Part shown: piece after piece, positions 1 to 39,479 of the stretch | Layout of the letters: each line of letters starts with the position of its first letter | Numbering within the stretch: position 1 is the stretch's first letter | Source of the DNA: Corallium rubrum | Lineage: Eukaryota; Cnidaria; Anthozoa; Scleralcyonacea; Coralliidae | Assembly (NCBI GenBank): GCA_964035015.1 | Contig: OZ036002.1 | Coordinates: 31,001-95,000, forward strand | DNA: 64,000 nucleotides | Direction of reading: 5' to 3' | Position numbers and translations under genes: made by a program | Notes under the pieces: model-generated | What the model was told of the DNA's origin: nothing | The model's database searches: none | The model's input: the letters and a program-made list of their open reading frames with translations, nothing else

Positions 1-573
1 GGCTCATTTCTCCGGTTGAACGTAATCGTATACGATCGACTGCAGAAACCGCCTAAATTCCATGTTATTCCTGACGCTTAAATTTTATTTACGAATAATT
101 CCTGTTATGCTGCCACACTAATTCCACTATGTTCTTTCGCGAAAAATGATCATTCAAAGTAACTGAGCAACCAGCGGCACATGAGCCACTCGACTTCGCC
201 ACGGTTCTATAGAAATTCAATAGGACGAGAGTTCCTTTATCAAACTACTAATCTTTTTCTAAATGACTTGGTAATTTCTTAACTAGAGTGGCTTCTTCGA
301 CTTGTTTTGTCACATAGGTCATTATGCCTGTGAGCCGTGGCATACGCAACTTCTTTTAAATGGCTACTACTGTAATTAATCGCTTGCTCATCGCATAAAA
401 CTTTAACTTCAAATGCTTACAAAAAAATTATTGTAATCCCGTTCGACAATATAATATGCATATAAACTAACCACATATTCTTCTTTAGCATATTTTAAAA
501 CATTAATGGTCAATCCATCAGAGAAAATGGATTTTTATGAATTAAATCTGTTGCGTTTGCGTCCAATTTGTTC

Positions 574-833
574 TCAGACAATCATTGACATAATTCTTGA
601 AACAAAGCTAACATGAAATGGTTTCATGTTCCCCCTCCCCCCACTTCAATGTTGTGGACCTCAAAACGTTTGCAATTTGCACTCAGTCACCTGCCATTAC
701 ATTTAAATGTTCAGAGTATCAACATTGAAAAGGGGGACGGGGGGATAGCAATTCATGCAAAAAAGAGGCCTAGCAATTAACATGGCATGATTCACTCAAG
801 TCGTTTCAACTAATTTTGTCAATGATTGTCTGA
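574..833. mobile_element. 260-bp foldback (MITE-like) segment inside the satellite unit
   Basis: The ends are inverted copies of TCAGACAATCATTGACA (17 bp exact), extending with mismatches through AATT and TTGAAAC to about 30 bp. Inside, a second inverted pair joins CCCCCTCCCCCC plus TTCAATGTTG (about 629-657) to CAACATTGAA plus GGGGG (about 719-746), so the whole segment can fold on itself. It occurs at the same place in all units except those starting at 24589 and 28441. No clear target duplication flanks it, so a true transposon origin is inference; a palindrome native to the satellite is the alternative. Confidence 0.7.
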
Positions 834-975
834 ATTTACGTTAATAATTCTCCGTACATTTTTCGTTGCAGAGAAACGGCATATTTTACCCACGACTGCG
901 CAAAGTGATCTCACATACATTTAACACATATATTGATCGCTAACAACAAACGATAAACTTTAAAGGTTAATTACA

Positions 976-994
976 TGACGTCACCATGACGTCC
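976..994. promoter_or_regulatory. Paired CRE-like motif in the satellite unit
   Basis: A perfect palindromic TGACGTCA (976-983) is followed 11 bases later, start to start, by TGACGTCC (987-994). TGACGTCA is the known CREB/ATF binding site. The spacing is about one helical turn. It is present in the units I read. Whether it is bound is unknown. Confidence 0.45.
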
Positions 995-1592
995 TAATGT
1001 TAACTGTCACTACGCGGAAATCAGGTTCAAAATTATTGTCGGTTTAAAAGCTGCGCACGCCCTCTGTATTTCCATGATGAGTTTATAATTCTGACACAAA
1101 ACCTACACGTAAAATTAAAATCTGTCGATAACTTTATTGCAGACCTATCATGAAGGATAATGTATACCCTGCACTTGCGCAAATCATTAAAATATTTGAC
1201 CATTCATGCTGATATAAAGAGAAAAGTCGGGAAGAAATTGTCTTAAGTTAATGCCCAAAAGAACAGAACAAATTGTTTGTAGCAAGGGGGAAAAAATTCT
1301 TTCACCAGTTGCATTCATTAAAAACTTGTCAATAGAATAATTACCCAAGGCTTCGAATTCATCTCAAGTTACAACTGGCACCCGTGTTATAAAAGAGCTC
1401 ATATGTCAAGGAACATAAATAAACAATGAATCGAGGAGTTCAGCTCGATTTCAACAAAAATAATCGATACCCAAACCTTTCTCCTTATACTTTTATCATT
1501 ACAAATAGTTGACAAATAGTTGACAACACATATATACTTCTAAGATATCATTGCACTTTGCTGTGTACGAGACCGCTAAAATTAAGCTCAGC

Positions 1593-1857
1593 TTACCACA
1601 CTTTACCACAAACTTCGCATAATATTCAGTGCAATTTCAACTGAAATATTCGTTACACAAAGATGTTTTTAAACTTTAGCTCTATTTAAGCATTAAGTGG
1701 ACATAATTGTTGCATTTGATCACACTTTACCATATACTTACACTAAAATTTAGTACACTTTACCACACTTTACCACAATCTGCATATATAAAAGAATCAT
1801 AATCTAATTTATTAACATAAGCATGGTAAAGTGTGGTAAAGTGTGGTAAAGTGTGGC
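1593..1857. promoter_or_regulatory. Inverted iteron cluster (TTACCACA / TGTGGTAA) flanking a TATA box
   Basis: Plus-strand copies of the decamer TTACCACACT lie at 1593-1610, 1721-1732 and 1755-1777. The reverse complement, GGTAAAGTGT, is repeated three times in tandem at 1824-1857. Between the last two clusters sits TATATAAAAG (1785-1794), a good TATA box. The arms could pair into a stem of 20 or more bp with a 46-base loop. TGTGGT is also the core of the RUNX binding site. The cluster looks like a promoter or an origin-like iteron array; the sequence alone does not decide. Confidence 0.5.
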
Positions 1858-4800
1858 AAAATACAGAATTGATATGGTAAACTGAATTGATATAAAACGA
1901 TGTAGCTAAGAAATTACTATAAACAGTTCATTTCACTCGAAATAATTCTATAACACTATTTATTTGTCCAATATAGCGAATGCTAAGCAGCAAGGCGCCA
2001 TGTTGCGATAGACCCCCTGGGAGATTTGTTCAAAAAACAAGACATGTCGGGCTCATTTCTCCGGTTGAACGTAATCGTATACGATCGACTGCAGAAACCG
2101 CCTAAATTCCATGTTATTCCTGACGCTTAAATTTTATTTACGAATAATTCCTGTTATGCTGCCACACTAATTCCACTATGTTCTTTCGCGAAAAATGATC
2201 ATTCAAAGTAACTGAGCAACCAGCGGCACATGAGCCACTCGACTTCGCCACGGTTCTATAGAAATTCAATAGGACGAGAGTTCCTTTATCAAACTACTAA
2301 TCTTTTTCTAAATGACTTGGTAATTTCTTAACTAGAGTGGCTTCTTCGACTTGTTTTGTCACATAGGTCATTATGCCTGTGAGCCGTGGCATACGCAACT
2401 TCTTTTAAATGGCTACTACTGTAATTAATCGCTTGCTCATCGCATAAAACTTTAACTTCAAATGCTTACAAAAAAATTATTGTAATCCCGTTCGACAATA
2501 TAATATGCATATAAACTAACCACATATTCTTCTTTAGCATATTTTAAAACATTAATGGTCAATCCATCAGAGAAAATGGATTTTTATGAATTAAATCTGT
2601 TGCGTTTGCGTCCAATTTGTTCTCAGACAATCATTGACATAATTCTTGAAACAAAGCTAACATGAAATGGTTTCATGTTCCCCCTCCCCCCACTTCAATG
2701 TTGTGGACCTCAAAACGTTTGCAATTTGCACTCAGTCACCTGCCATTACATTTAAATGTTCAGAGTATCAACATTGAAAAGGGGGACGGGGGGATAGCAA
2801 TTCATGCAAAAAAGAGGCCTAGCAATTAACATGGCATGATTCACTCAAGTCGTTTCAACTAATTTTGTCAATGATTGTCTGAATTTACGTTAATAATTCT
2901 CCGTACATTTTTCGTTGCAGAGAAACGGCATATTTTACCCACGACTGCGCAAAGTGATCTCACATACATTTAACACATATATTGATCGCTAACAACAAAC
3001 GATAAACTTTAAAGGTTAATTACATGACGTCACCATGACGTCCTAATGTTAACTGTCACTACGCGGAAATCAGGTTCAAAATTATTGTCGGTTTAAAAGC
3101 TGCGCACGCCCTCTGTATTTCCATGATGAGTTTATAATTCTGACACAAAACCTACACGTAAAATTAAAATCTGTCGATAACTTTATTGCAGACCTATCAT
3201 GAAGGATAATGTATACCCTGCACTTGCGCAAATCATTAAAATATTTGACCATTCATGCTGATATAAAGAGAAAAGTCGGGAAGAAATTGTCTTAAGTTAA
3301 TGCCCAAAAGAACAGAACAAATTGTTTGTAGCAAGGGGGAAAAAATTCTTTCACCAGTTGCATTCATTAAAAACTTGTCAATAGAATAATTACCCAAGGC
3401 TTCGAATTCATCTCAAGTTACAACTGGCACCCGTGTTATAAAAGAGCTCATATGTCAAGGAACATAAATAAACAATGAATCGAGGAGTTCAGCTCGATTT
3501 CAACAAAAATAATCGATACCCAAACCTTTCTCCTTATACTTTTATCATTACAAATAGTTGACAAATAGTTGACAACACATATATACTTCTAAGATATCAT
3601 TGCACTTTGCTGTGTACGAGACCGCTAAAATTAAGCTCAGCTTACCACACTTTACCACAAACTTCGCATAATATTCAGTGCAATTTCAACTGAAATATTC
3701 GTTACACAAAGATGTTTTTAAACTTTAGCTCTATTTAAGCATTAAGTGGACATAATTGTTGCATTTGATCACACTTTACCATATACTTACACTAAAATTT
3801 AGTACACTTTACCACACTTTACCACAATCTGCATATATAAAAGAATCATAATCTAATTTATTAACATAAGCATGGTAAAGTGTGGTAAAGTGTGGTAAAG
3901 TGTGGCAAAATACAGAATTGATATGGTAAACTGAATTGATATAAAACGATGTAGCTAAGAAATTACTATAAACAGTTCATTTCACTCGAAATAATTCTAT
4001 AACACTATTTATTTGTCCAATATAGCGAATGCTAAGCAGCAAGGCGCCATGTTGCGATAGACCCCCTGGGAGATTTGTTCAAAAAACAAGACATGTCGGG
4101 CTCATTTCTCCGGTTGAACGTAATCGTATACGATCGACTGCAGAAACCGCCTAAATTCCATGTTATTCCTGACGCTTAAATTTTATTTACGAATAATTCC
4201 TGTTATGCTGCCACACTAATTCCACTATGTTCTTTCGCGAAAAATGATCATTCAAAGTAACTGAGCAACCAGCGGCACATGAGCCACTCGACTTCGCCAC
4301 GGTTCTATAGAAATTCAATAGGACGAGAGTTCCTTTATCAAACTACTAATCTTTTTCTAAATGACTTGGTAATTTCTTAACTAGAGTGGCTTCTTCGACT
4401 TGTTTTGTCACATAGGTCATTATGCCTGTGAGCCGTGGCATACGCAACTTCTTTTAAATGGCTACTACTGTAATTAATCGCTTGCTCATCGCATAAAACT
4501 TTAACTTCAAATGCTTACAAAAAAATTATTGTAATCCCGTTCGACAATATAATATGCATATAAACTAACCACATATTCTTCTTTAGCATATTTTAAAACA
4601 TTAATGGTCAATCCATCAGAGAAAATGGATTTTTATGAATTAAATCTGTTGCGTTTGCGTCCAATTTGTTCTCAGACAATCATTGACATAATTCTTGAAA
4701 CAAAGCTAACATGAAATGGTTTCATGTTCCCCCTCCCCCCACTTCAATGTTGTGGACCTCAAAACGTTTGCAATTTGCACTCAGTCACCTGCCATTACAT

Positions 4801-7800
4801 TTAAATGTTCAGAGTATCAACATTGAAAAGGGGGGACGGGGGGATAGCAATTCATGCAAAAAAGAGGCCTAGCAATTAACATGGCATGATTCACTCAAGT
4901 CGTTTCAACTAATTTTGTCAATGATTGTCTGAATTTACGTTAATAATTCTCCGTACATTTTTCGTTGCAGAGAAACGGCATATTTTACCCACGACTGCGC
5001 AAAGTGATCTCACATACATTTAACACATATATTGATCGCTAACAACAAACGATAAACTTTAAAGGTTAATTACATGACGTCACCATGACGTCCTAATGTT
5101 AACTGTCACTACGCGGAAATCAGGTTCAAAATTATTGTCGGTTTAAAAGCTGCGCACGCCCTCTGTATTTCCATGATGAGTTTATAATTCTGACACAAAA
5201 CCTACACGTAAAATTAAAATCTGTCGATAACTTTATTGCAGACCTATCATGAAGGATAATGTATACCCTGCACTTGCGCAAATCATTAAAATATTTGACC
5301 ATTCATGCTGATATAAAGAGAAAAGTCGGGAAGAAATTGTCTTAAGTTAATGCCCAAAAGAACAGAACAAATTGTTTGTAGCAAGGGGGAAAAAATTCTT
5401 TCACCAGTTGCATTCATTAAAAACTTGTCAATAGAATAATTACCCAAGGCTTCGAATTCATCTCAAGTTACAACTGGCACCCGTGTTATAAAAGAGCTCA
5501 TATGTCAAGGAACATAAATAAACAATGAATCGAGGAGTTCAGCTCGATTTCAACAAAAATAATCGATACCCAAACCTTTCTCCTTATACTTTTATCATTA
5601 CAAATAGTTGACAAATAGTTGACAACACATATATACTTCTAAGATATCATTGCACTTTGCTGTGTACGAGACCGCTAAAATTAAGCTCAGCTTACCACAC
5701 TTTACCACAAACTTCGCATAATATTCAGTGCAATTTCAACTGAAATATTCGTTACACAAAGATGTTTTTAAACTTTAGCTCTATTTAAGCATTAAGTGGA
5801 CATAATTGTTGCATTTGATCACACTTTACCATATACTTACACTAAAATTTAGTACACTTTACCACACTTTACCACAATCTGCATATATAAAAGAATCATA
5901 ATCTAATTTATTAACATAAGCATGGTAAAGTGTGGTAAAGTGTGGTAAAGTGTGGCAAAATACAGAATTGATATGGTAAACTGAATTGATATAAAACGAT
6001 GTAGCTAAGAAATTACTATAAACAGTTCATTTCACTCGAAATAATTCTATAACACTATTTATTTGTCCAATATAGCGAATGCTAAGCAGCAAGGCGCCAT
6101 GTTGCGATAGACCCCCTGGGAGATTTGTTCAAAAAACAAGACATGTCGGGCTCATTTCTCCGGTTGAACGTAATCGTATACGATCGACTGCAGAAACCGC
6201 CTAAATTCCATGTTATTCCTGACGCTTAAATTTTATTTACGAATAATTCCTGTTATGCTGCCACACTAATTCCACTATGTTCTTTCGCGAAAAATGATCA
6301 TTCAAAGTAACTGAGCAACCAGCGGCACATGAGCCACTCGACTTCGCCACGGTTCTATAGAAATTCAATAGGACGAGAGTTCCTTTATCAAACTACTAAT
6401 CTTTTTCTAAATGACTTGGTAATTTCTTAACTAGAGTGGCTTCTTCGACTTGTTTTGTCACATAGGTCATTATGCCTGTGAGCCGTGGCATACGCAACTT
6501 CTTTTAAATGGCTACTACTGTAATTAATCGCTTGCTCATCGCATAAAACTTTAACTTCAAATGCTTACAAAAAAATTATTGTAATCCCGTTCGACAATAT
6601 AATATGCATATAAACTAACCACATATTCTTCTTTAGCATATTTTAAAACATTAATGGTCAATCCATCAGAGAAAATGGATTTTTATGAATTAAATCTGTT
6701 GCGTTTGCGTCCAATTTGTTCTCAGACAATCATTGACATAATTCTTGAAACAAAGCTAACATGAAATGGTTTCATGTTCCCCCTCCCCCCACTTCAATGT
6801 TGTGGACCTCAAAACGTTTGCAATTTGCACTCAGTCACCTGCCATTACATTTAAATGTTCAGAGTATCAACATTGAAAAGGGGGGACGGGGGGATAGCAA
6901 TTCATGCAAAAAAGAGGCCTAGCAATTAACATGGCATGATTCACTCAAGTCGTTTCAACTAATTTTGTCAATGATTGTCTGAATTTACGTTAATAATTCT
7001 CCGTACATTTTTCGTTGCAGAGAAACGGCATATTTTACCCACGACTGCGCAAAGTGATCTCACATACATTTAACACATATATTGATCGCTAACAACAAAC
7101 GATAAACTTTAAAGGTTAATTACATGACGTCACCATGACGTCCTAATGTTAACTGTCACTACGCGGAAATCAGGTTCAAAATTATTGTCGGTTTAAAAGC
7201 TGCGCACGCCCTCTGTATTTCCATGATGAGTTTATAATTCTGACACAAAACCTACACGTAAAATTAAAATCTGTCGATAACTTTATTGCAGACCTATCAT
7301 GAAGGATAATGTATACCCTGCACTTGCGCAAATCATTAAAATATTTGACCATTCATGCTGATATAAAGAGAAAAGTCGGGAAGAAATTGTCTTAAGTTAA
7401 TGCCCAAAAGAACAGAACAAATTGTTTGTAGCAAGGGGGAAAAAATTCTTTCACCAGTTGCATTCATTAAAAACTTGTCAATAGAATAATTACCCAAGGC
7501 TTCGAATTCATCTCAAGTTACAACTGGCACCCGTGTTATAAAAGAGCTCATATGTCAAGGAACATAAATAAACAATGAATCGAGGAGTTCAGCTCGATTT
7601 CAACAAAAATAATCGATACCCAAACCTTTCTCCTTATACTTTTATCATTACAAATAGTTGACAAATAGTTGACAACACATATATACTTCTAAGATATCAT
7701 TGCACTTTGCTGTGTACGAGACCGCTAAAATTAAGCTCAGCTTACCACACTTTACCACAAACTTCGCATAATATTCAGTGCAATTTCAACTGAAATATTC

Positions 7801-10800
7801 GTTACACAAAGATGTTTTTAAACTTTAGCTCTATTTAAGCATTAAGTGGACATAATTGTTGCATTTGATCACACTTTACCATATACTTACACTAAAATTT
7901 AGTACACTTTACCACACTTTACCACAATCTGCATATATAAAAGAATCATAATCTAATTTATTAACATAAGCATGGTAAAGTGTGGTAAAGTGTGGTAAAG
8001 TGTGGCAAAATACAGAATTGATATGGTAAACTGAATTGATATAAAACGATGTAGCTAAGAAATTACTATAAACAGTTCATTTCACTCGAAATAATTCTAT
8101 AACACTATTTATTTGTCCAATATAGCGAATGCTAAGCAGCAAGGCGCCATGTTGCGATAGACCCCCTGGGAGATTTGTTCAAAAAACAAGACATGTCGGG
8201 CTCATTTCTCCGGTTGAACGTAATCGTATACGATCGACTGCAGAAACCGCCTAAATTCCATGTTATTCCTGACGCTTAAATTTTATTTACGAATAATTCC
8301 TGTTATGCTGCCACACTAATTCCACTATGTTCTTTCGCGAAAAATGATCATTCAAAGTAACTGAGCAACCAGCGGCACATGAGCCACTCGACTTCGCCAC
8401 GGTTCTATAGAAATTCAATAGGACGAGAGTTCCTTTATCAAACTACTAATCTTTTTCTAAATGACTTGGTAATTTCTTAACTAGAGTGGCTTCTTCGACT
8501 TGTTTTGTCACATAGGTCATTATGCCTGTGAGCCGTGGCATACGCAACTTCTTTTAAATGGCTACTACTGTAATTAATCGCTTGCTCATCGCATAAAACT
8601 TTAACTTCAAATGCTTACAAAAAAATTATTGTAATCCCGTTCGACAATATAATATGCATATAAACTAACCACATATTCTTCTTTAGCATATTTTAAAACA
8701 TTAATGGTCAATCCATCAGAGAAAATGGATTTTTATGAATTAAATCTGTTGCGTTTGCGTCCAATTTGTTCTCAGACAATCATTGACATAATTCTTGAAA
8801 CAAAGCTAACATGAAATGGTTTCATGTTCCCCCTCCCCCACTTCAATGTTGTGGACCTCAAAACGTTTGCAATTTGCACTCAGTCACCTGCCATTACATT
8901 TAAATGTTCAGAGTATCAACATTGAAAAGGGGGGACGGGGGGATAGCAATTCATGCAAAAAAGAGGCCTAGCAATTAACATGGCATGATTCACTCAAGTC
9001 GTTTCAACTAATTTTGTCAATGATTGTCTGAATTTACGTTAATAATTCTCCGTACATTTTTCGTTGCAGAGAAACGGCATATTTTACCCACGACTGCGCA
9101 AAGTGATCTCACATACATTTAACACATATATTGATCGCTAACAACAAACGATAAACTTTAAAGGTTAATTACATGACGTCACCATGACGTCCTAATGTTA
9201 ACTGTCACTACGCGGAAATCAGGTTCAAAATTATTGTCGGTTTAAAAGCTGCGCACGCCCTCTGTATTTCCATGATGAGTTTATAATTCTGACACAAAAC
9301 CTACACGTAAAATTAAAATCTGTCGATAACTTTATTGCAGACCTATCATGAAGGATAATGTATACCCTGCACTTGCGCAAATCATTAAAATATTTGACCA
9401 TTCATGCTGATATAAAGAGAAAAGTCGGGAAGAAATTGTCTTAAGTTAATGCCCAAAAGAACAGAACAAATTGTTTGTAGCAAGGGGGAAAAAATTCTTT
9501 CACCAGTTGCATTCATTAAAAACTTGTCAATAGAATAATTACCCAAGGCTTCGAATTCATCTCAAGTTACAACTGGCACCCGTGTTATAAAAGAGCTCAT
9601 ATGTCAAGGAACATAAATAAACAATGAATCGAGGAGTTCAGCTCGATTTCAACAAAAATAATCGATACCCAAACCTTTCTCCTTATACTTTTATCATTAC
9701 AAATAGTTGACAAATAGTTGACAACACATATATACTTCTAAGATATCATTGCACTTTGCTGTGTACGAGACCGCTAAAATTAAGCTCAGCTTACCACACT
9801 TTACCACAAACTTCGCATAATATTCAGTGCAATTTCAACTGAAATATTCGTTACACAAAGATGTTTTTAAACTTTAGCTCTATTTAAGCATTAAGTGGAC
9901 ATAATTGTTGCATTTGATCACACTTTACCATATACTTACACTAAAATTTAGTACACTTTACCACACTTTACCACAATCTGCATATATAAAAGAATCATAA
10001 TCTAATTTATTAACATAAGCATGGTAAAGTGTGGTAAAGTGTGGTAAAGTGTGGCAAAATACAGAATTGATATGGTAAACTGAATTGATATAAAACGATG
10101 TAGCTAAGAAATTACTATAAACAGTTCATTTCACTCGAAATAATTCTATAACACTATTTATTTGTCCAATATAGCGAATGCTAAGCAGCAAGGCGCCATG
10201 TTGCGATAGACCCCCTGGGAGATTTGTTCAAAAAACAAGACATGTCGGGCTCATTTCTCCGGTTGAACGTAATCGTATACGATCGACTGCAGAAACCGCC
10301 TAAATTCCATGTTATTCCTGACGCTTAAATTTTATTTACGAATAATTCCTGTTATGCTGCCACACTAATTCCACTATGTTCTTTCGCGAAAAATGATCAT
10401 TCAAAGTAACTGAGCAACCAGCGGCACATGAGCCACTCGACTTCGCCACGGTTCTATAGAAATTCAATAGGACGAGAGTTCCTTTATCAAACTACTAATC
10501 TTTTTCTAAATGACTTGGTAATTTCTTAACTAGAGTGGCTTCTTCGACTTGTTTTGTCACATAGGTCATTATGCCTGTGAGCCGTGGCATACGCAACTTC
10601 TTTTAAATGGCTACTACTGTAATTAATCGCTTGCTCATCGCATAAAACTTTAACTTCAAATGCTTACAAAAAAATTATTGTAATCCCGTTCGACAATATA
10701 ATATGCATATAAACTAACCACATATTCTTCTTTAGCATATTTTAAAACATTAATGGTCAATCCATCAGAGAAAATGGATTTTTATGAATTAAATCTGTTG

Positions 10801-13800
10801 CGTTTGCGTCCAATTTGTTCTCAGACAATCATTGACATAATTCTTGAAACAAAGCTAACATGAAATGGTTTCATGTTCCCCCTCCCCCCACTTCAATGTT
10901 GTGGACCTCAAAACGTTTGCAATTTGCACTCAGTCACCTGCCATTACATTTAAATGTTCAGAGTATCAACATTGAAAAGGGGGACGGGGGATAGCAATTC
11001 ATGCAAAAAAGAGGCCTAGCAATTAACATGGCATGATTCACTCAAGTCGTTTCAACTAATTTTGTCAATGATTGTCTGAATTTACGTTAATAATTCTCCG
11101 TACATTTTTCGTTGCAGAGAAACGGCATATTTTACCCACGACTGCGCAAAGTGATCTCACATACATTTAACACATATATTGATCGCTAACAACAAACGAT
11201 AAACTTTAAAGGTTAATTACATGACGTCACCATGACGTCCTAATGTTAACTGTCACTACGCGGAAATCAGGTTCAAAATTATTGTCGGTTTAAAAGCTGC
11301 GCACGCCCTCTGTATTTCCATGATGAGTTTATAATTCTGACACAAAACCTACACGTAAAATTAAAATCTGTCGATAACTTTATTGCAGACCTATCATGAA
11401 GGATAATGTATACCCTGCACTTGCGCAAATCATTAAAATATTTGACCATTCATGCTGATATAAAGAGAAAAGTCGGGAAGAAATTGTCTTAAGTTAATGC
11501 CCAAAAGAACAGAACAAATTGTTTGTAGCAAGGGGGAAAAAATTCTTTCACCAGTTGCATTCATTAAAAACTTGTCAATAGAATAATTACCCAAGGCTTC
11601 GAATTCATCTCAAGTTACAACTGGCACCCGTGTTATAAAAGAGCTCATATGTCAAGGAACATAAATAAACAATGAATCGAGGAGTTCAGCTCGATTTCAA
11701 CAAAAATAATCGATACCCAAACCTTTCTCCTTATACTTTTATCATTACAAATAGTTGACAAATAGTTGACAACACATATATACTTCTAAGATATCATTGC
11801 ACTTTGCTGTGTACGAGACCGCTAAAATTAAGCTCAGCTTACCACACTTTACCACAAACTTCGCATAATATTCAGTGCAATTTCAACTGAAATATTCGTT
11901 ACACAAAGATGTTTTTAAACTTTAGCTCTATTTAAGCATTAAGTGGACATAATTGTTGCATTTGATCACACTTTACCATATACTTACACTAAAATTTAGT
12001 ACACTTTACCACACTTTACCACAATCTGCATATATAAAAGAATCATAATCTAATTTATTAACATAAGCATGGTAAAGTGTGGTAAAGTGTGGTAAAGTGT
12101 GGCAAAATACAGAATTGATATGGTAAACTGAATTGATATAAAACGATGTAGCTAAGAAATTACTATAAACAGTTCATTTCACTCGAAATAATTCTATAAC
12201 ACTATTTATTTGTCCAATATAGCGAATGCTAAGCAGCAAGGCGCCATGTTGCGATAGACCCCCTGGGAGATTTGTTCAAAAAACAAGACATGTCGGGCTC
12301 ATTTCTCCGGTTGAACGTAATCGTATACGATCGACTGCAGAAACCGCCTAAATTCCATGTTATTCCTGACGCTTAAATTTTATTTACGAATAATTCCTGT
12401 TATGCTGCCACACTAATTCCACTATGTTCTTTCGCGAAAAATGATCATTCAAAGTAACTGAGCAACCAGCGGCACATGAGCCACTCGACTTCGCCACGGT
12501 TCTATAGAAATTCAATAGGACGAGAGTTCCTTTATCAAACTACTAATCTTTTTCTAAATGACTTGGTAATTTCTTAACTAGAGTGGCTTCTTCGACTTGT
12601 TTTGTCACATAGGTCATTATGCCTGTGAGCCGTGGCATACGCAACTTCTTTTAAATGGCTACTACTGTAATTAATCGCTTGCTCATCGCATAAAACTTTA
12701 ACTTCAAATGCTTACAAAAAAATTATTGTAATCCCGTTCGACAATATAATATGCATATAAACTAACCACATATTCTTCTTTAGCATATTTTAAAACATTA
12801 ATGGTCAATCCATCAGAGAAAATGGATTTTTATGAATTAAATCTGTTGCGTTTGCGTCCAATTTGTTCTCAGACAATCATTGACATAATTCTTGAAACAA
12901 AGCTAACATGAAATGGTTTCATGTTCCCCTCCCCCCACTTCAATGTTGTGGACCTCAAAACGTTTGCAATTTGCACTCAGTCACCTGCCATTACATTTAA
13001 ATGTTCAGAGTATCAACATTGAAAAGGGGGGACGGGGGATAGCAATTCATGCAAAAAAGAGGCCTAGCAATTAACATGGCATGATTCACTCAAGTCGTTT
13101 CAACTAATTTTGTCAATGATTGTCTGAATTTACGTTAATAATTCTCCGTACATTTTTCGTTGCAGAGAAACGGCATATTTTACCCACGACTGCGCAAAGT
13201 GATCTCACATACATTTAACACATATATTGATCGCTAACAACAAACGATAAACTTTAAAGGTTAATTACATGACGTCACCATGACGTCCTAATGTTAACTG
13301 TCACTACGCGGAAATCAGGTTCAAAATTATTGTCGGTTTAAAAGCTGCGCACGCCCTCTGTATTTCCATGATGAGTTTATAATTCTGACACAAAACCTAC
13401 ACGTAAAATTAAAATCTGTCGATAACTTTATTGCAGACCTATCATGAAGGATAATGTATACCCTGCACTTGCGCAAATCATTAAAATATTTGACCATTCA
13501 TGCTGATATAAAGAGAAAAGTCGGGAAGAAATTGTCTTAAGTTAATGCCCAAAAGAACAGAACAAATTGTTTGTAGCAAGGGGGAAAAAATTCTTTCACC
13601 AGTTGCATTCATTAAAAACTTGTCAATAGAATAATTACCCAAGGCTTCGAATTCATCTCAAGTTACAACTGGCACCCGTGTTATAAAAGAGCTCATATGT
13701 CAAGGAACATAAATAAACAATGAATCGAGGAGTTCAGCTCGATTTCAACAAAAATAATCGATACCCAAACCTTTCTCCTTATACTTTTATCATTACAAAT

Positions 13801-14341
13801 AGTTGACAAATAGTTGACAACACATATATACTTCTAAGATATCATTGCACTTTGCTGTGTACGAGACCGCTAAAATTAAGCTCAGCTTACCACACTTTAC
13901 CACAAACTTCGCATAATATTCAGTGCAATTTCAACTGAAATATTCGTTACACAAAGATGTTTTTAAACTTTAGCTCTATTTAAGCATTAAGTGGACATAA
14001 TTGTTGCATTTGATCACACTTTACCATATACTTACACTAAAATTTAGTACACTTTACCACACTTTACCACAATCTGCATATATAAAAGAATCATAATCTA
14101 ATTTATTAACATAAGCATGGTAAAGTGTGGTAAAGTGTGGTAAAGTGTGGCAAAATACAGAATTGATATGGTAAACTGAATTGATATAAAACGATGTAGC
14201 TAAGAAATTACTATAAACAGTTCATTTCACTCGAAATAATTCTATAACACTATTTATTTGTCCAATATAGCGAATGCTAAGCAGCAAGGCGCCATGTTGC
14301 GATAGACCCCCTGGGAGATTTGTTCAAAAAACAAGACATGT

Positions 14342-19300: not shown

Positions 19301-22300
19301 TTTTCGTTGCAGAGAAACGGCATATTTTACCCACGACTGCGCAAAGTGATCTCACATACATTTAACACATATATTGATCGCTAACAACAAACGATAAACT
19401 TTAAAGGTTAATTACATGACGTCACCATGACGTCCTAATGTTAACTGTCACTACGCGGAAATCAGGTTCAAAATTATTGTCGGTTTAAAAGCTGCGCACG
19501 CCCTCTGTATTTCCATGATGAGTTTATAATTCTGACACAAAACCTACACGTAAAATTAAAATCTGTCGATAACTTTATTGCAGACCTATCATGAAGGATA
19601 ATGTATACCCTGCACTTGCGCAAATCATTAAAATATTTGACCATTCATGCTGATATAAAGAGAAAAGTCGGGAAGAAATTGTCTTAAGTTAATGCCCAAA
19701 AGAACAGAACAAATTGTTTGTAGCAAGGGGGAAAAAATTCTTTCACCAGTTGCATTCATTAAAAACTTGTCAATAGAATAATTACCCAAGGCTTGAATTC
19801 ATCTCAAGTTACAACTGGCACCCGTGTTATAAAAGAGCTCATATGTCAAGGAACATAAATAAACAATGAATCGAGGAGTTCAGCTCGATTTCAACAAAAA
19901 TAATCGATACCCAAACCTTTCTCCTTATACTTTTATCATTACAAATAGTTGACAAATAGTTGACAACACATATATACTTCTAAGATATCATTGCACTTTG
20001 CTGTGTACGAGACCGCTAAAATTAAGCTCAGCTTACCACACTTTACCACAAACTTCGCATAATATTCAGTGCAATTTCAACTGAAATATTCGTTACACAA
20101 AGATGTTTTTAAACTTTAGCTCTATTTAAGCATTAAGTGGACATAATTGTTGCATTTGATCACACTTTACCATATACTTACACTAAAATTTAGTACACTT
20201 TACCACACTTTACCACAATCTGCATATATAAAAGAATCATAATCTAATTTATTAACATAAGCATGGTAAAGTGTGGTAAAGTGTGGTAAAGTGTGGCAAA
20301 ATACAGAATTGATATGGTAAACTGAATTGATATAAAACGATGTAGCTAAGAAATTACTATAAACAGTTCATTTCACTCGAAATAATTCTATAACACTATT
20401 TATTTGTCCAATATAGCGAATGCTAAGCAGCAAGGCGCCATGTTGCGATAGACCCCCTGGGAGATTTGTTCAAAAAACAAGACATGTCGGGCTCATTTCT
20501 CCGGTTGAACGTAATCGTATACGATCGACTGCAGAAACCGCCTAAATTCCATGTTATTCCTGACGCTTAAATTTTATTTACGAATAATTCCTGTTATGCT
20601 GCCACACTAATTCCACTATGTTCTTTCGCGAAAAATGATCATTCAAAGTAACTGAGCAACCAGCGGCACATGAGCCACTCGACTTCGCCACGGTTCTATA
20701 GAAATTCAATAGGACGAGAGTTCCTTTATCAAACTACTAATCTTTTTCTAAATGACTTGGTAATTTCTTAACTAGAGTGGCTTCTTCGACTTGTTTTGTC
20801 ACATAGGTCATTATGCCTGTGAGCCGTGGCATACGCAACTTCTTTTAAATGGCTACTACTGTAATTAATCGCTTGCTCATCGCATAAAACTTTAACTTCA
20901 AATGCTTACAAAAAAATTATTGTAATCCCGTTCGACAATATAATATGCATATAAACTAACCACATATTCTTCTTTAGCATATTTTAAAACATTAATGGTC
21001 AATCCATCAGAGAAAATGGATTTTTATGAATTAAATCTGTTGCGTTTGCGTCCAATTTGTTCTCAGACAATCATTGACATAATTCTTGAAACAAAGCTAA
21101 CATGAAATGGTTTCATGTTCCCCCTCCCCCCACTTCAATGTTGTGGACCTCAAAACGTTTGCAATTTGCACTCAGTCACCTGCCATTACATTTAAATGTT
21201 CAGAGTATCAACATTGAAAAGGGGGGACGGGGGATAGCAATTCATGCAAAAAAGAGGCCTAGCAATTAACATGGCATGATTCACTCAAGTCGTTTCAACT
21301 AATTTTGTCAATGATTGTCTGAATTTACGTTAATAATTCTCCGTACATTTTTCGTTGCAGAGAAACGGCATATTTTACCCACGACTGCGCAAAGTGATCT
21401 CACATACATTTAACACATATATTGATCGCTAACAACAAACGATAAACTTTAAAGGTTAATTACATGACGTCACCATGACGTCCTAATGTTAACTGTCACT
21501 ACGCGGAAATCAGGTTCAAAATTATTGTCGGTTTAAAAGCTGCGCACGCCCTCTGTATTTCCATGATGAGTTTATAATTCTGACACAAAACCTACACGTA
21601 AAATTAAAATCTGTCGATAACTTTATTGCAGACCTATCATGAAGGATAATGTATACCCTGCACTTGCGCAAATCATTAAAATATTTGACCATTCATGCTG
21701 ATATAAAGAGAAAAGTCGGGAAGAAATTGTCTTAAGTTAATGCCCAAAAGAACAGAACAAATTGTTTGTAGCAAGGGGGAAAAAATTCTTTCACCAGTTG
21801 CATTCATTAAAAACTTGTCAATAGAATAATTACCCAAGGCTTTGAATTCATCTCAAGTTACAACTGGCACCCGTGTTATAAAAGAGCTCATATGTCAAGG
21901 AACATAAATAAACAATGAATCGAGGAGTTCAGCTCGATTTCAACAAAAATAATCGATACCCAAACCTTTCTCCTTATACTTTTATCATTACAAATAGTTG
22001 ACAAATAGTTGACAACACATATATACTTCTAAGATATCATTGCACTTTGCTGTGTACGAGACCGCTAAAATTAAGCTCAGCTTACCACACTTTACCACAA
22101 ACTTCGCATAATATTCAGTGCAATTTCAACTGAAATATTCGTTACACAAAGATGTTTTTAAACTTTAGCTCTATTTAAGCATTAAGTGGACATAATTGTT
22201 GCATTTGATCACACTTTACCATATACTTACACTAAAATTTAGTACACTTTACCACACTTTACCACAATCTGCATATATAAAAGAATCATAATCTAATTTA

Positions 22301-24588
22301 TTAACATAAGCATGGTAAAGTGTGGTAAAGTGTGGTAAAGTGTGGCAAAATACAGAATTGATATGGTAAACTGAATTGATATAAAACGATGTAGCTAAGA
22401 AATTACTATAAACAGTTCATTTCACTCGAAATAATTCTATAACACTATTTATTTGTCCAATATAGCGAATGCTAAGCAGCAAGGCGCCATGTTGCGATAG
22501 ACCCCCTGGGAGATTTGTTCAAAAAACAAGACATGTCGGGCTCATTTCTCCGGTTGAACGTAATCGTATACGATCGACTGCAGAAACCGCCTAAATTCCA
22601 TGTTATTCCTGACGCTTAAATTTTATTTACGAATAATTCCTGTTATGCTGCCACACTAATTCCACTATGTTCTTTCGCGAAAAATGATCATTCAAAGTAA
22701 CTGAGCAACCAGCGGCACATGAGCCACTCGACTTCGCCACGTTTCTATAGAAATTCAATAGGACGAGAGTTCCTTTATCAAACTACTAATCTTTTTCTAA
22801 ATGACTTGGTAATTTCTTAACTAGAGTGGCTTCTTCGACTTGTTTTGTCACATAGGTCATTATGCCTGTGAGCCGTGGCATACGCAACTTCTTTTAAATG
22901 GCTACTACTGTAATTAATCGCTTGCTCATCGCATAAAACTTTAACTTCAAATGCTTACAAAAAAATTATTGTAATCCCGTTCGACAATATAATATGCATA
23001 TAAACTAACCACATATTCTTCTTTAGCATATTTTAAAACATTAATGGTCAATCCATCAGAGAAAATGGATTTTTATGAATTAAATCTGTTGCGTTTGCGT
23101 CCAATTTGTTCTCAGACAATCATTGACATAATTCTTGAAACAAAGCTAACATGAAATGGTTTCATGTTCCCCCTCCCCCCACTTCAATGTTGTGGACCTC
23201 AAAACGTTTGCAATTTGCACTCAGTCACCTGCCATTACATTTAAATGTTCAGAGTATCAACATTGAAAAGGGGGGACGAGGGGATAGCAATTCATGCAAA
23301 AAAGAGGCCTAGCAATTAACATGGCATGATTCACTCAAGTCGTTTCAACTAATTTTGTCAATGATTGTCTGAATTTACGTTAATAATTCTCCGTACATTT
23401 TTCGTTGCAGAGAAACGGCATATTTTACCCACGACTGCGCAAAGTGATCTCACATACATTTAACACATATATTGATCGCTAACAACAAACGATAAACTTT
23501 AAAGGTTAATTACATGACGTCACCATGACGTCCTAATGTTAACTGTCACTACGCGGAAATCAGGTTCAAAATTATTGTCGGTTTAAAAGCTGCGCACGCC
23601 CTCTGTATTTCCATGATGAGTTTATAATTCTGACACAAAACCTACACGTAAAATTAAAATCTGTCGATAACTTTATTGCAGACCTATCATGAAGGATAAT
23701 GTATACCCTGCACTTGCGCAAATCATTAAAATATTTGACCATTCATGCTGATATAAAGAGAAAAGTCGGGAAGAAATTGTGTTAAGTTAATGCCCAAAAG
23801 AACAGAACAAATTGTTTGTAGCAAGGGGGAAAAAATTCTTTCACCAGTTGCATTCATTAAAAACTTGTCAATAGAATAATTACCCAAGGCTTTGAATTCA
23901 TCTCAAGTTACAACTGGCACCCGTGTTATAAAAGAGCTCATATGTCAAGGAACATAAATAAACAATGAATCGAGGAGTTCAGCTCGATTTCAACAAAAAT
24001 AATCGATACCCAAACCTTTCTCCTTATACTTTTATCATTACAAATAGTTGACAAATAGTTGACAACACATATATACTTCTAAGATATCATTGCACTTTGC
24101 TGTGTACGAGACCGCTAAAATTAAGCTCAGCTTACCACACTTTACCACAAACTTCGCATAATATTCAGTGCAATTTCAACTGAAATATTCGTTACACAAA
24201 GATGTTTTTAAACTTTAGCTCTATTTAAGCATTAAGTGGACATAATTGTTGCATTTGATCACACTTTACCATATACTTACACTAAAATTTAGTACACTTT
24301 ACCACACTTTACCACAATCTGCATATATAAAAGAATCATAATCTAATTTATTAACATAAGCATGGTAAAGTGTGGTAAAGTGTGGTAAAGTGTGGCAAAA
24401 TACAGAATTGATATGGTAAACTGAATTGATATAAAACGATGTAGCTAAGAAATTACTATAAACAGTTCATTTCACTCGAAATAATTCTATAACACTATTT
24501 ATTTGTCCAATATAGCGAATGCTAAGCAGCAAGGCGCCATGTTGCGATAGACCCCCTGGGAGATTTGTTCAAAAAACAAGACATGTCG

Positions 24589-26390
24589 GGCTCATTTCTC
24601 CGGTTGAACGTAATCGTATACGATCGACTGCAGAAACCGCCTAAATTCCATGTTATTCCTGACGCTTAAATTTTATTTACGAATAATTCCTGTTATGCTG
24701 CCACACTAATTCCACTATGTTCTTTCGCGAAAAATGATCATTCAAAGTAACTGAGCAACCAGCGGCACATGAGCCACTCGACTTCGCCACGGTTCTATAG
24801 AAATTCAATAGGACGAGAGTTCCTTTATCAAACTACTAATCTTTTTCTAAATGACTTGGTAATTTCTTAACTAGAGTGGCTTCTTCGACTTGTTTTGTCA
24901 CATAGGTCATTATGCCTGTGAGCCGTGGCATACGCAACTTCTTTTAAATGGCTACTACTGTAATTAATCGCTTGCTCATCGCATAAAACTTTAACTTCAA
25001 ATGCTTACAAAAAAATTATTGTAATCCCGTTCGACAATATAATATGCATATAAACTAACCACATATTCTTCTTTAGCATATTTTAAAACATTAATGGTCA
25101 ATCCATCAGAGAAAATGGATTTTTATGAATTAAATCTGTTGCGTTTGCGTCCAATTTGTTCTCAGACTGTCTGAATTTACGTTAATAATTCTCCGTACAT
25201 TTTTCGTTGCAGAGAAACGGCATATTTTACCCACGACCGCGCAAAGTGATCTCACATACATTTAACACATATATTGATCGCTAACAACAAACGATAAACT
25301 TTAAAGGTTAATTACATGACGTCACCATGACGTCCTAATGTTAACTGTCACTACGCGGAAATCAGGTTCAAAATTATTGTCGGTTTAAAAGCTGCGCACG
25401 CCCTCTGTATTTCCATGATGAGTTTATAATTCTGACACAAAACCTACACGTAAAATTAAAATCTGTCGATAACTTTATTGCAGACCTATCATGAAGGATA
25501 ATGTATACCCTGCACTTGCGCAAATCATTAAAATATTTGACCATTCATGCTGATATAAAGAGAAAAGTCGGGAAGAAATTGTGTTAAGTTAATGCCCAAA
25601 AGAACAGAACAAATTGTTTGTAGCAAGGGGGAAAAAATTCTTTCACCAGTTGCATTCATTAAAAACTTGTCAATAGAATAATTACCCAAGGCTTTGAATT
25701 CATCTCAAGTTACAACTGGCACCCGTGTTATAAAAGAGCTCATATGTCAAGGAACATAAATAAACAATGAATCGAGGAGTTCAGCTCGATTTCAACAAAA
25801 ATAATCGATACCCAAACCTTTCTCCTTATACTTTTATCATTACAAATAGTTGACAAATAGTTGACAACACATATATACTTCTAAGATATCATTGCACTTT
25901 GCTGTGTACGAGACCGCTAAAATTAAGCTCAGCTTACCACACTTTACCACAAACTTCGCATAATATTCAGTGCAATTTCAACTGAAATATTCGTTACACA
26001 AAGATGTTTTTAAACTTTAGCTCTATTTAAGCATTAAGTGGACATAATTGTTGCATTTGATCACACTTTACCATATACTTACACTAAAATTTAGTACACT
26101 TTACCACACTTTACCACAATCTGCATATATAAAAGAATCATAATCTAATTTATTAACATAAGCATGGTAAAGTGTGGTAAAGTGTGGTAAAGTGTGGCAA
26201 AATACAGAATTGATATGGTAAACTGAATTGATATAAAACGATGTAGCTAAGAAATTACTATAAACAGTTCATTTCACTCGAAATAATTCTATAACACTAT
26301 TTATTTGTCCAATATAGCGAATGCTAAGCAGCAAGGCGCCATGTTGCGATAGACCCCCTGGGAGATTTGTTCAAAAAACAAGACATGTCG
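24589..26390. repeat. Short satellite unit (1,802 bp) lacking the foldback interior
   Basis: The sequence jumps from TTCTCAGAC directly to TGTCTGAATTT near 25162-25174. The inside of the 260-bp foldback is gone and six bases of each terminus remain as TCAGAC-T-GTCTGA. The rest of the unit matches its neighbours, apart from a private ACGACCGCGC. Confidence 0.95.
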
Positions 26391-28440
26391 GGCTCATTTC
26401 TCCGGTTGAACGTAATCGTATACGATCGACTGCAGAAACCGCCTAAATTCCATGTTATTCCTGACGCTTAAATTTTATTTACGAATAATTCCTGTTATGC
26501 TGCCACACTAATTCCACTATGTTCTTTCGCGAAAAATGATCATTCAAAGTAACTGAGCAACCAGCGGCACATGAGCCACTCGACTTCGCCACGTTTCTAT
26601 AGAAATTCAATAGGACGAGAGTTCCTTTATCAAACTACTAATCTTTTTCTAAATGACTTGGTAATTTCTTAACTAGAGTGGCTTCTTCGACTTGTTTTGT
26701 CACATAGGTCATTATGCCTGTGAGCCGTGGCATACGCAACTTCTTTTAAATGGCTACTACTGTAATTAATCGCTTGCTCATCGCATAAAACTTTAACTTC
26801 AAATGCTTACAAAAAAATTATTGTAATCCCGTTCGACAATATAATATGCATATAAACTAACCACATATTCTTCTTTAGCATATTTTAAAACATTAATGGT
26901 CAATCCATCAGAGAAAATGGATTTTTATGAATTAAATCTGTTGCGTTTGCGTCCAATTTGTTCTCAGACAATCATTGACATAATTCTTGAAACAAAGCTA
27001 ACATGAAATGGTTTCATGTTCCCCCTCCCCCCACTTCAATGTTGTGGACCTCAAAACGTTTGCAATTTGCACTCAGTCACCTGCCATTACATTTAAATGT
27101 TCAGAGTATCAACATTGAAAAGGGGGGACGGGGGGATAGCAATTCATGCAAAAAAGAGGCCTAGCAATTAACATGGCATGATTCACTCAAGTCGTTTCAA
27201 CTAATTTTGTCAATGATTGTCTGAATTTACGTTAATAATTCTCCGTACATTTTTCGTTGCAGAGAAACGGCATATTTTACCCACGACTGCGCAAAGTGAT
27301 CTCACATACATTTAACACATATATTGATCGCTAACAACAAACGATAAACTTTAAAGGTTAATTACATGACGTCACCATGACGTCCTAATGTTAACTGTCA
27401 CTACGCGGAAATCAGGTTCAAAATTATTGTCGGTTTAAAAGCTGCGCACGCCCTCTGTATTTCCATGATGAGTTTATAATTCTGACACAAAACCTACACG
27501 TAAAATTAAAATCTGTCGATAACTTTATTGCAGACCTATCATGAAGGATAATGTATACCCTGCACTTGCGCAAATCATTAAAATATTTGACCATTCATGC
27601 TGATATAAAGAGAAAAGTCGGGAAGAAATTGTGTTAAGTTAATGCCCAAAAGAACAGAACAAATTGTTTGTAGCAAGGGGGAAAAAATTCTTTCACCAGT
27701 TGCATTCATTAAAAACTTGTCAATAGAATAATTACCCAAGGCTTTGAATTCATCTCAAGTTACAACTGGCACCCGTGTTATAAAAGAGCTCATATGTCAA
27801 GGAACATAAATAAACAATGAATCGAGGAGTTCAGCTCGATTTCAACAAAAATAATCGATACCCAAACCTTTCTCCTTATACTTTTATCATTACAAATAGT
27901 TGACAAATAGTTGACAACACATATATACTTCTAAGATATCATTGCACTTTGCTGTGTACGAGACCGCTAAAATTAAGCTCAGCTTACCACACTTTACCAC
28001 AAACTTCGCATAATATTCAGTGCAATTTCAACTGAAATATTCGTTACACAAAGATGTTTTTAAACTTTAGCTCTATTTAAGCATTAAGTGGACATAATTG
28101 TTGCATTTGATCACACTTTACCATATACTTACACTAAAATTTAGTACACTTTACCACACTTTACCACAATCTGCATATATAAAAGAATCATAATCTAATT
28201 TATTAACATAAGCATGGTAAAGTGTGGTAAAGTGTGGTAAAGTGTGGCAAAATACAGAATTGATATGGTAAACTGAATTGATATAAAACGATGTAGCTAA
28301 GAAATTACTATAAACAGTTCATTTCACTCGAAATAATTCTATAACACTATTTATTTGTCCAATATAGCGAATGCTAAGCAGCAAGGCGCCATGTTGCGAT
28401 AGACCCCCTGGGAGATTTGTTCAAAAAACAAGACATGTCG

Positions 28441-30242
28441 GGCTCATTTCTCCGGTTGAACGTAATCGTATACGATCGACTGCAGAAACCGCCTAAATTC
28501 CATGTTATTCCTGACGCTTAAATTTTATTTACGAATAATTCCTGTTATGCTGCCACACTAATTCCACTATGTTCTTTCGCGAAAAATGATCATTCAAAGT
28601 AACTGAGCAACCAGCGGCACATGAGCCACTCGACTTCGCCACGTTTCTATAGAAATTCAATAGGACGAGAGTTCCTTTATCAAACTACTAATCTTTTTCT
28701 AAATGACTTGGTAATTTCTTAACTAGAGTGGCTTCTTCGACTTGTTTTGTCACATAGGTCATTATGCCTGTGAGCCGTGGCATACGCAACTTCTTTTAAA
28801 TGGCTACTACTGTAATTAATCGCTTGCTCATCGCATAAAACTTTAACTTCAAATGCTTACAAAAAAATTATTGTAATCCCGTTCGACAATATAATATGCA
28901 TATAAACTAACCACATATTCTTCTTTAGCATATTTTAAAACATTAATGGTCAATCCATCAGAGAAAATGGATTTTTATGAATTAAATCTGTTGCGTTTGC
29001 GTCCAATTTGTTCTCAGACTGTCTGAATTTACGTTAATAATTCTCCGTACATTTTTCGTTGCAGAGAAACGGCATATTTTACCCACGACTGCGCAAAGTG
29101 ATCTCACATACATTTAACACATATATTGATCGCTAACAACAAACGATAAACTTTAAAGGTTAATTACATGACGTCACCATGACGTCCTAATGTTAACTGT
29201 CACTACGCGGAAATCAGGTTCAAAATTATTGTCGGTTTAAAAGCTGCGCACGCCCTCTGTATTTCCATGATGAGTTTATAATTCTGACACAAAACCTACA
29301 CGTAAAATTAAAATCTGTCGATAACTTTATTGCAGACCTATCATGAAGGATAATGTATACCCTGCACTTGCGCAAATCATTAAAATATTTGACCATTCAT
29401 GCTGATATAAAGAGAAAAGTCGGGAAGAAATTGTGTTAAGTTAATGCCCAAAAGAACAGAACAAATTGTTTGTAGCAAGGGGGAAAAAATTCTTTCACCA
29501 GTTGCATTCATTAAAAACTTGTCAATAGAATAATTACCCAAGGCTTTGAATTCATCTCAAGTTACAACTGGCACCCGTGTTATAAAAGAGCTCATATGTC
29601 AAGGAACATAAATAAACAATGAATCGAGGAGTTCAGCTCGATTTCAACAAAAATAATCGATACCCAAACCTTTCTCCTTATACTTTTATCATTACAAATA
29701 GTTGACAAATAGTTGACAACACATATATACTTCTAAGATATCATTGCACTTTGCTGTGTACGAGACCGCTAAAATTAAGCTCAGCTTACCACACTTTACC
29801 ACAAACTTCGCATAATATTCAGTGCAATTTCAACTGAAATATTCGTTACACAAAGATGTTTTTAAACTTTAGCTCTATTTAAGCATTAAGTGGACATAAT
29901 TGTTGCATTTGATCACACTTTACCATATACTTACACTAAAATTTAGTACACTTTACCACACTTTACCACAATCTGCATATATAAAAGAATCATAATCTAA
30001 TTTATTAACATAAGCATGGTAAAGTGTGGTAAAGTGTGGTAAAGTGTGGCAAAATACAGAATTGATATGGTAAACTGAATTGATATAAAACGATGTAGCT
30101 AAGAAATTACTATAAACAGTTCATTTCACTCGAAATAATTCTATAACACTATTTATTTGTCCAATATAGCGAATGCTAAGCAGCAAGGCGCCATGTTGCG
30201 ATAGACCCCCTGGGAGATTTGTTCAAAAAACAAGACATGTCG
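28441..30242. repeat. Second short satellite unit (1,802 bp), same junction
   Basis: The junction TCAGAC-T-GTCTGA near 29014-29026 is identical to that of the unit at 24589. Together with its 2,050-bp left neighbour it forms a 3,852-bp dimer that repeats the 22539-26390 dimer, which points to duplication of one deletion event rather than two events. Confidence 0.95.
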
Positions 30243-31111
30243 GGCTCATTTCTCCGGTTGAACGTAATCGTATACGATCGACTGCAGAAACCGCCTAAAT
30301 TCCATGTTATTCCTGACGCTTAAATTTTATTTACGAATAATTCCTGTTATGCTGCCACACTAATTCCACTATGTTCTTTCGCGAAAAATGATCATTCAAA
30401 GTAACTGAGCAACCAGCGGCACATGAGCCACTCGACTTCGCCACGTTTCTATAGAAATTCAATAGGACGAGAGTTCCTTTATCAAACTACTAATCTTTTT
30501 CTAAATGACTTGGTAATTTCTTAACTAGAGTGGCTTCTTCGACTTGTTTTGTCACATAGGTCATTATGCCTGTGAGCCGTGGCATACGCAACTTCTTTTA
30601 AATGGCTACTACTGTAATTAATCGCTTGCTCATCGCATAAAACTTTAACTTCAAATGCTTACAAAAAAATTATTGTAATCCCGTTCGACAATATAATATG
30701 CATATAAACTAACCACATATTCTTCTTTAGCATATTTTAAAACATTAATGGTCAATCCATCAGAGAAAATGGATTTTTATGAATTAAATCTGTTGCGTTT
30801 GCGTCCAATTTGTTCTCAGACAATCATTGACATAATTCTTGAAACAAAGCTAACATGAAATGGTTTCATGTTCCCCCTCCCCCCCACTTCAATGTTGTGG
30901 ACCTCAAAACGTTTGCAATTTGCACTCAGTCACCTGCCATTACATTTAAATGTTCAGAGTATCAACATTGAAAAGGGGGGACGGGGGGATAGCAATTCAT
31001 GCAAAAAAGAGGCCTAGCAATTAACATGGCATGATTCACTCAAGTCGTTTCAACTAATTTTGTCAATGATTGTACATATATACATACACACCATTATGAG
31101 CATGTATCTAC

Positions 31112-39315: not shown

Positions 39316-39479
39316 AAATCTAATTTCATGTTGTCGCGTCTGGGCTTCCGTATCTTTTTGTTAACAAAACCAAATAAATAATGAAAAATAACATTTTTTG
39401 TACTAAATAATAAATTTACACTTGGTACCCCATACAAGCGCAGCTTTTTCTTCTAAAGATAATATTTCATATATCTGCA

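Follow-up and report, generated by a model that had tools for sequence, protein, structure and literature searches.

A macrosatellite array in Corallium rubrum that looks like an integrated concatemer of a small mobile DNA element

Structure of the array and genomic distribution of its units

The stretch analyzed here (the window; 64,000 bp) corresponds to C18:31001-95000 of the Corallium rubrum genome (474 Mb, 312 contigs), and its left part is filled by a tandem array of ~2-kb units, each composed of a short module with terminal inverted repeats (TIRs) and a longer, non-coding body. We describe this array together with a related element that encodes a transposase and a putative Rep protein, and weigh how such an array might arise. 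The array occupies positions 1..31072 of the window (forward strand, as for all array features below) in the arrangement (module-body)n-module, and is part of a larger array at C18:11305-62072 with TA at both sides. The whole array measures 50.8 kb, comprises 25 bodies and 23 modules, and extends 19.7 kb beyond the left edge of the window; C18:30001-31000 was bridged by the repeat period in this reconstruction. Fifteen of the 25 units begin within the window, where they are spaced by 2048-2050 bp except for two spacings of 1802 bp. These two shorter units differ by the absence of exactly the 250-bp module. The tandem array of near-identical ~2-kb units that the first-pass annotation had placed at 1..31073 was therefore borne out. 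A search for GFP gave one exon-sized match with nearest PDB sequences of anthozoan type, which weakly suggests an anthozoan cnidarian as host.

The first whole body (829..2627, 1799 bp) has no open reading frame (ORF) of 60 codons, as had also been noted earlier, and the longest stop-to-stop frame in the unit is 59 codons. With frames of this size, protein-coding capacity of the unit was rejected. A known structured RNA was likewise rejected, since a scan of the window against Rfam returned no family at gathering score.

Exact copies of a 39-bp core of the unit number 420 in the genome (205 + 215), compared to 0 for the reversed control. These copies lie on several contigs, so that absence of the unit outside this contig, which would have refuted the earlier reading, does not apply, and an assembly artefact was rejected on the same ground. 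Within the first 100 core matches, 23 loci lay dispersed along the 96-Mb contig C1 (3.7 to 92.9 Mb), 11 with one exact core and 12 with more; exact core matching can overlook units. Neither this scatter nor the first 10 kb of C18, where no TTAGGG dimer was found, supports the centromeric or subtelomeric location that had been suggested. The array is not a classical satellite; judged from its sequence, it resembles a small mobile DNA element repeated head to tail many times.

Module ends, target duplications and footprints

The first whole module (579..828, 250 bp) has the TIR ends CAATCATTGACA and TGTCAATGATTG, an inner stem formed by a C-rich stretch and CAATGTTG, and the inner flanks CTCAGA and TCTGAA. 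The second module (2628-2877) gave a single-strand DNA fold with z = -6.1. A terminal module (30821..31072) closes the array at its right end and is followed directly by the right copy of a TA target duplication (31073..31074), whose left copy lies at C18:11303-11304. The end of the array is a module end, and hence not arbitrary. The arrays at C18, C82, C53 and C1:10.83 Mb all run from a left module end to a right module end. Equal 2-bp flanks were present at 6/6 loci that had not been picked by the TA pattern, and these were TA/TA at C18, C82, C1:10.83, C1:7.95 and C1:10.03 Mb and TC/TC at C53. Because both ends of the arrays are module ends with 2-bp target duplications, the arrays look like mobile elements of the form (module-body)n-module. 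A long terminal repeat (LTR) retrotransposon or an array resembling terminal-repeat retrotransposons in miniature (TRIMs) was rejected, as the ends read CAATC...GATTG and the duplication is 2 bp, rather than TG...CA with 4-6 bp.

The pattern TA+CAATCATTGACA occurs 348 + 350 times in the genome, compared to once for the reversed control. Pairing of the first 100 TA ends on C1 yielded 12 short pairs, 11 window-family elements, 4 elements with Rep and 11 other pairs, with 24 ends left without a partner. Ten of the short pairs were module-sized, and the remaining two measured 32 bp and 144 bp. The 11 other pairs included two window-family copies at 96-97% (L063 and L064) and three elements (L048, L050 and L051) of a Rep-less type of the coding family described below. 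Among 15 window-family loci on C1 covered by the TA-end list, the exact TA and TIR were found at both expected distances in 11, at one in 2 and at neither in 2. A single window-family element at C1:10.03 Mb (L037) has end modules in opposite orientation, as if one had flipped.

At two positions in the window where the module is missing, a CTG footprint lies between two bodies (25167..25169 and 29019..29021). The resulting AGA-CTG-TCT join is also seen where the module is missing in the left part of the C18 array, at C1:30.48 Mb and at C1:9.01 Mb, while other module-less joins read AGA-CAGTG-TCT (C1:3.68 Mb) and, at one join, AGA-CAG-TCT (C1:31.1 Mb). Across the genome, the CTG join is found 32 times with exact window-family flanks, and an identical join is present in L054, an autonomous array whose body differs. 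That short remnants recur precisely at the module boundary, in differing sequence backgrounds, points to enzymatic excision rather than to one inherited deletion.

The window module and those of L048-L051 are 83% alike over the first 49 bp and 92-96% alike over the last 26 bp. Modules of four elements with diverged Rep genes (L057, L060, L058 and L059) are 145-260 bp long; they retain ends in which CAATC is preceded by AGA or by TA, and also the inner stem (C-rich..CAATGTTG / CAACATTG..G-rich). Retention of this stem suggests that the hairpin has a conserved function.

A coding relative with a transposase and a Rep-like protein

A search by these ends turned up L049. This 4.27-kb element shares its TA and TIR ends with the window array, has a whole module on either side, and has inner flanks (CTCAGA and TCTGA) that match those of the window. 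Its 334-aa transposase frame scored above the Pfam cut-off for DDE_3 (PF13358, E = 1.2e-15). On the opposite strand, an intact 504-aa frame, termed Rep here, gave weak HUH and SF3-helicase scores. Six diverged Rep families are 43-65% identical to the L049 Rep, and HYH (the HUH motif), YxxK, GPxNCGK[TS] (Walker A) and LNDFRW are invariant in 7/7 aligned Reps (L049 and the six families). The L061 Rep passes the Parvo_NS1 cut-off. Scans of the Rep set against PHROGs and NCBIfam returned nothing beyond weak unnamed or ATPase-type matches.

Synonymous sites were saturated, with pN of 0.21-0.44, in 20/21 Rep pairs, and dN/dS was 0.14 for the closest pair (L058/L059), so that Rep looks maintained. 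Between-family pairs of the transposase likewise displayed synonymous saturation with pN of 0.21-0.44, and the near-identical pair L049/L053 had a dN/dS of 0.42, based on few changes. Residues D176, D274 and E309 (L056 numbering), which we take to be catalytic, are invariant in 4/4 aligned transposases, and 34 residues separate the last two (DD34E-type). A whole transposase adjoins Rep in L056 and L060, as does a long stretch of one in L053, and frames of 369-374 aa are present in other Rep arrays. Two Rep loci carry additional sequence: a P2X7 intracellular domain frame (P2RX7_C, E = 8e-39) adjoins Rep in L061 (3561-4103), and a long, perfect 6-bp repeat that encodes poly-glutamate lies in frame directly before Rep in L058 (1-224).

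An iteron palindrome shared with the coding relative

The first whole body contains an iteron palindrome (1652..1898), a putative replication origin that is homologous to positions 824-1070 of the L049 body. Its left arm (1755..1777) consists of inverted TGGTAAAGTG copies and its right arm (1824..1860) of 3.7 copies of TGGTAAAGTG. Between them lies an AT-rich spacer (1778..1823), a candidate nick or unwinding site, which holds a TATA-like stretch (about 1784-1794) and the shared TAAT(C/T)TAATTTAT. This 10-bp iteron has 7 exact copies in the unit, compared to about 0.005 expected from base composition, and in the second unit the iteron region (3772-3915) folds much more strongly than shuffled sequence (z = -9.05). 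The window body and L049 match at the palindrome over 262 columns, of which 69% are identical (E = 6e-30), and a further stretch of 48 columns (E = 7e-6) aligns inside those iterons; no other strong similarity was found between the two bodies. Compared with L049, the left arm of the window body was not clearly above shuffles save for a TGACGTCAC block, and the right arm was not either.

The window unit carries 7 copies of TGGTAAAGTG and L049 carries 8, compared to 0 in the six other families; L056, L057 and L060 each have a repeat of their own that is absent from the rest of the eight-sequence set. An AT-rich spacer with TAAT(C/T)TAATTTAT separates the arms in all five aligned sequences. Iteron repeats thus vary with the Rep family, which is the pattern that a Rep-origin pair would show. 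NANTATTAC, the nonanucleotide of CRESS-DNA origins, has two sequence matches each in L049, L056, L058 and L059 and none in L057, L060 and L061.

The first-pass annotation had listed a cAMP response element (CRE) pair, a TATA box and iterons, and had offered both a replication or amplification unit and promoter-like content as readings. All of these motifs are present in the sequence. The former reading stands, given the homology of the palindrome and its AT-rich core to those of an element that encodes a Rep-like protein. The latter fared less well. The CRE-like pair (TGACGTC) lies at 976..994 (976-983 and 987-994), and TGACGTCA is found 147-149 bp past the module in the window, L048, L049 and L051, a distance close to that of the transposase start in L049. 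There, TGACGTCA overlaps the transposase start codon (ATG ACG TCA), so it may be no more than a remnant; checks of L060, L061 and L064, a window-family copy, did not find it. The exact TATA stretch was present in 0/10 relatives checked, including the window-family copies L063 and L064. A promoter is therefore the weaker reading of the unit, compared to a replication unit.

Tandem organization of transposase and Rep loci

Near-identical Rep genes are arranged in arrays that repeat about every 3.7-4.0 kb, for example with 7 and 6 copies on C32 and with 4, 3 and 3 on C1, and two of these arrays, at C1:28.64 and C1:43.04 Mb, terminate at TA-flanked module ends. Among the matches listed, 14/49 Rep clusters were judged to be tandem arrays, and 3 of the 49 were fragments of one gene. 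We tallied 150 scored DDE_3 matches (of 748 candidates) against 89 Rep matches among those listed, and called a match tandem if a second one lay 0.8-6 kb away on the same strand. The L050/L051 type (16 matches), which was set by frame length and a stop, with only L051 read, was held apart from both classes. Tandem matches made up 18/32 of those with a listed Rep within 3.5 kb, 11/16 of the L050/L051 type and 0/102 of the others. Counted by locus, again among the matches listed, the respective values were 4/18, 4/9 and 0/102 (Rep versus others, p = 4e-4). Three arrays (C1:47856967-47864134, C96:216018-223522 and C263:16098-18698) are apparently of the Rep-less L050/L051 type, with one stop in the transposase frame. 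Defective units thus look as if they, too, occur in tandem.

Uniformity within and between arrays

Array-private variants, as defined among the arrays compared, were shared by 2/2 units of C53, 3/3 units of C1:10.83 Mb and 4/4 units read at C1:31.1 Mb, and the two units of C82 were identical. The 14 units at C1:9.01 Mb were 99.9% alike internally and 95.9% alike to the window. Units of the C18 array, in which 24 of the 25 bodies were compared, were not uniform.

We likewise compared the two outer modules of diverged elements, and in most cases these were closer to each other than to the modules of other elements. Identities within an element were 1.0, 1.0, 0.992 and 0.976 for the window family and 1.0, 1.0, 1.0 and 0.988 for the Rep family, and the mean identities between elements were 0.94-0.98 and 0.97-0.99, respectively; C1:10.03 Mb was excluded, its modules being oppositely oriented. 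In our analysis this trend would fit a circle with one module, as with retroviral LTRs, although it is not decisive.

Other features of the window

To the right of the array, two 15-bp minisatellites (36939-37770, 55.5 copies; 38903-39320, 27.9 copies) are about 70% alike when inverted, and both sit in long open frames of up to 343 aa. An inverted pair of 302-bp repeats (42153-42454 and 47416-47717), 97% identical and with tandem cores of 29-32 bp, resembles a miniature inverted-repeat transposable element (MITE). A DUF3504 frame lies on the reverse strand (51858-52418), and GDSL lipase and Exo_endo_phos frames (61189-62812) probably belong to a non-LTR retrotransposon.

Proposed mechanism and alternatives

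Taken together, these findings lead us to propose, with a probability of roughly 0.7, that the array represents copies of a mobile, non-autonomous transposon that were concatemerized by Rep and integrated by the transposase. Mobility and the partnership with a coding relative are well supported, and Rep-driven amplification of the window array is what we infer. Excision or recombination would yield a circle of one module and one body. Rep would then bind the iterons and copy the circle from the iteron origin, by a rolling-circle or similar process, giving head-to-tail concatemers that the transposase would insert at TA via the outermost module ends. The window family, having lost both genes, would be served in trans as a passenger. 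The same transposase might also excise inner modules, and solo modules might persist as MITEs. The chances seem to us about even for a broader version of this account, namely a two-engine animal element in which an HUH-SF3 Rep concatemerizes and a Tc1/mariner transposase inserts, such that macrosatellites are born in one insertion and gene-free units consisting of origin and module ride along.

The main rival to amplification by Rep is unequal crossing-over between modules. According to this alternative, the element is a composite transposon (a MITE pair and a captured body) that was moved by a Tc1/mariner transposase; single insertions were later expanded by crossing-over, and Rep had no role in amplification. 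Direct-repeat modules are indeed present in the tandem families read, both single-core and multi-core loci exist (11 and 12, respectively, of the 23 loci on C1 from the first 100 matches), and the center of the C18 array is more alike than its edges, as unequal exchange would give. We nevertheless consider it unlikely, though worth serious weight, as it leaves unexplained the finding that the window body strongly resembles the coding element in the iteron origin only, the differing iterons of the Rep families, the maintenance of Rep under selection, and the fact that very young insertions free of differences (C82, C53 and C1:10.83 Mb) are already multimeric. An endogenous, single-stranded (ss) DNA virus-like replicon that gained a transposase, with the window array as its defective satellite genome, would account for the HUH and SF3 layout and the weak Parvo_NS1/E1-like helicase scores. 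It appears quite improbable: L049 has no sign of a capsid gene, its frames longer than 100 aa being Rep, the transposase and, nested within these in antisense, two frames of 226 and 148 aa, and no relative was confirmed in IMG/VR, plasmids, phages or prokaryote genomes, the eukaryotic search having covered its own genome only. Long, near-identical, non-coding units would also suit an ordinary structural macrosatellite of centromeric or subtelomeric kind with incidental promoter- and origin-like content, but the dispersed insertions, precise ends, target duplications, origin homology to a Rep element and excision-like footprints make this hardly credible.

Several observations weigh against amplification by Rep followed by insertion of the concatemer. 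Besides the uneven C18 array, they include the outer modules: young loci have modules that are identical between loci as well (nearest other locus 1.0), the module at C1:23.39 Mb is nearer to another locus (0.996) than to its own partner (0.992), and identity within L050 (0.988) is lower than that between L048 and L050 (0.994). Just 4/18 Rep loci were tandem among the matches listed, and the 0/102 control cannot part Rep from plain recombination, because the tandem families read also have direct-repeat modules of their own. As for the proteins, the L049 Rep matched the Pfam HUH family PF23343 at E = 7e-5, which is under the cut-off, and of the PDB searches with Rep, the sequence search was unproductive and profile matches reached only E = 0.15 or worse. 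The L049 transposase has a shorter C-terminus than that of L053, the L057 transposase is split over two frames, and the stretches fetched for L058, L059 and L061 (3/6 divergent Rep families) showed no transposase. NANTATTAC has no match in the window unit. Finally, the structural parts are read directly from DNA, and the circle, its replication and the supply in trans are inferred.

Significance

How satellite arrays with kilobase units originate is a question of long standing, for which many models require slow unequal exchange. A single genome shows the two putative engines together with the origin and the end module, and it has several diverged families, of which at least 4 have their own iterons. 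With all of these visible in one genome, satellite production by replication before insertion can be tested directly. The pairing of Rep with a DDE transposase would connect replication of the viral or plasmid type to eukaryotic cut-and-paste transposons, and the reading of the array as an element could explain how some satellite DNA arises.

Relation to known systems

No Tc1/mariner element with Rep or with concatemer insertion appeared among the literature matches listed, which consisted of titles and abstract beginnings, with preprints outside the search and few subscription papers in it. The combination of Rep and Tc1/mariner is likely to be new, though this is not established. The elements described here share with Tc1/mariner (IS630-Tc1-mariner) transposons and MITEs the TIRs, the TA duplication, short footprints and, in the coding relative, a DDE_3 transposase of DD34E type. 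They differ in having an entire, directly repeated TIR module at each end and an added Rep gene, and in that many of the insertions are concatemers. Known Tc1/mariner members carry, to our knowledge, one TIR pair. The Tec elements of Euplotes are of Tc1 type and have a second recombination enzyme.

HUH-SF3 Rep replicons, such as CRESS-DNA viruses, parvoviruses and eukaryotic plasmids, have the same motif order, invariant residues, iterons around an AT-rich palindrome and replicon size. They differ in that L049 lacks a capsid-sized extra gene, the window unit lacks NANTATTAC, sequence similarity is weak, and chromosomal insertion here would proceed via a DDE transposase. Helitrons, as far as we know, have neither TIRs nor a TA duplication made by a DDE enzyme.

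Tandem copies of a DNA transposon are described for hobo arrays (PMC12628747). Hobo and Helitron arrays resemble the present ones in their head-to-tail copies, and a rolling-circle origin is discussed for Helitrons, whereas they are not known to pair a DDE transposase with Rep. The Xenopus miDNA4 and Xstir are MITE-satellite composites in which the repeat lies inside one MITE or is MITE-derived (PMC12628747, PMC9659126). As here, a Tc1/mariner MITE (miDNA4) is tied to a tandem repeat; in C. rubrum, by contrast, the MITE-like module is both part of the unit and the boundary of the array, and a Rep-coding partner exists. Teratorn, as summarized in PMC6431247, is a fusion of piggyBac and a herpesvirus that measures 41-182 kb, and Terminons are retroelements that can carry Rep and form tandem arrays. 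Whereas the former is herpesviral and far from our elements in size, and the latter are retroelements, both systems share with the array described here a transposon joined to replication machinery, and Terminons share Rep and tandem arrays as well.

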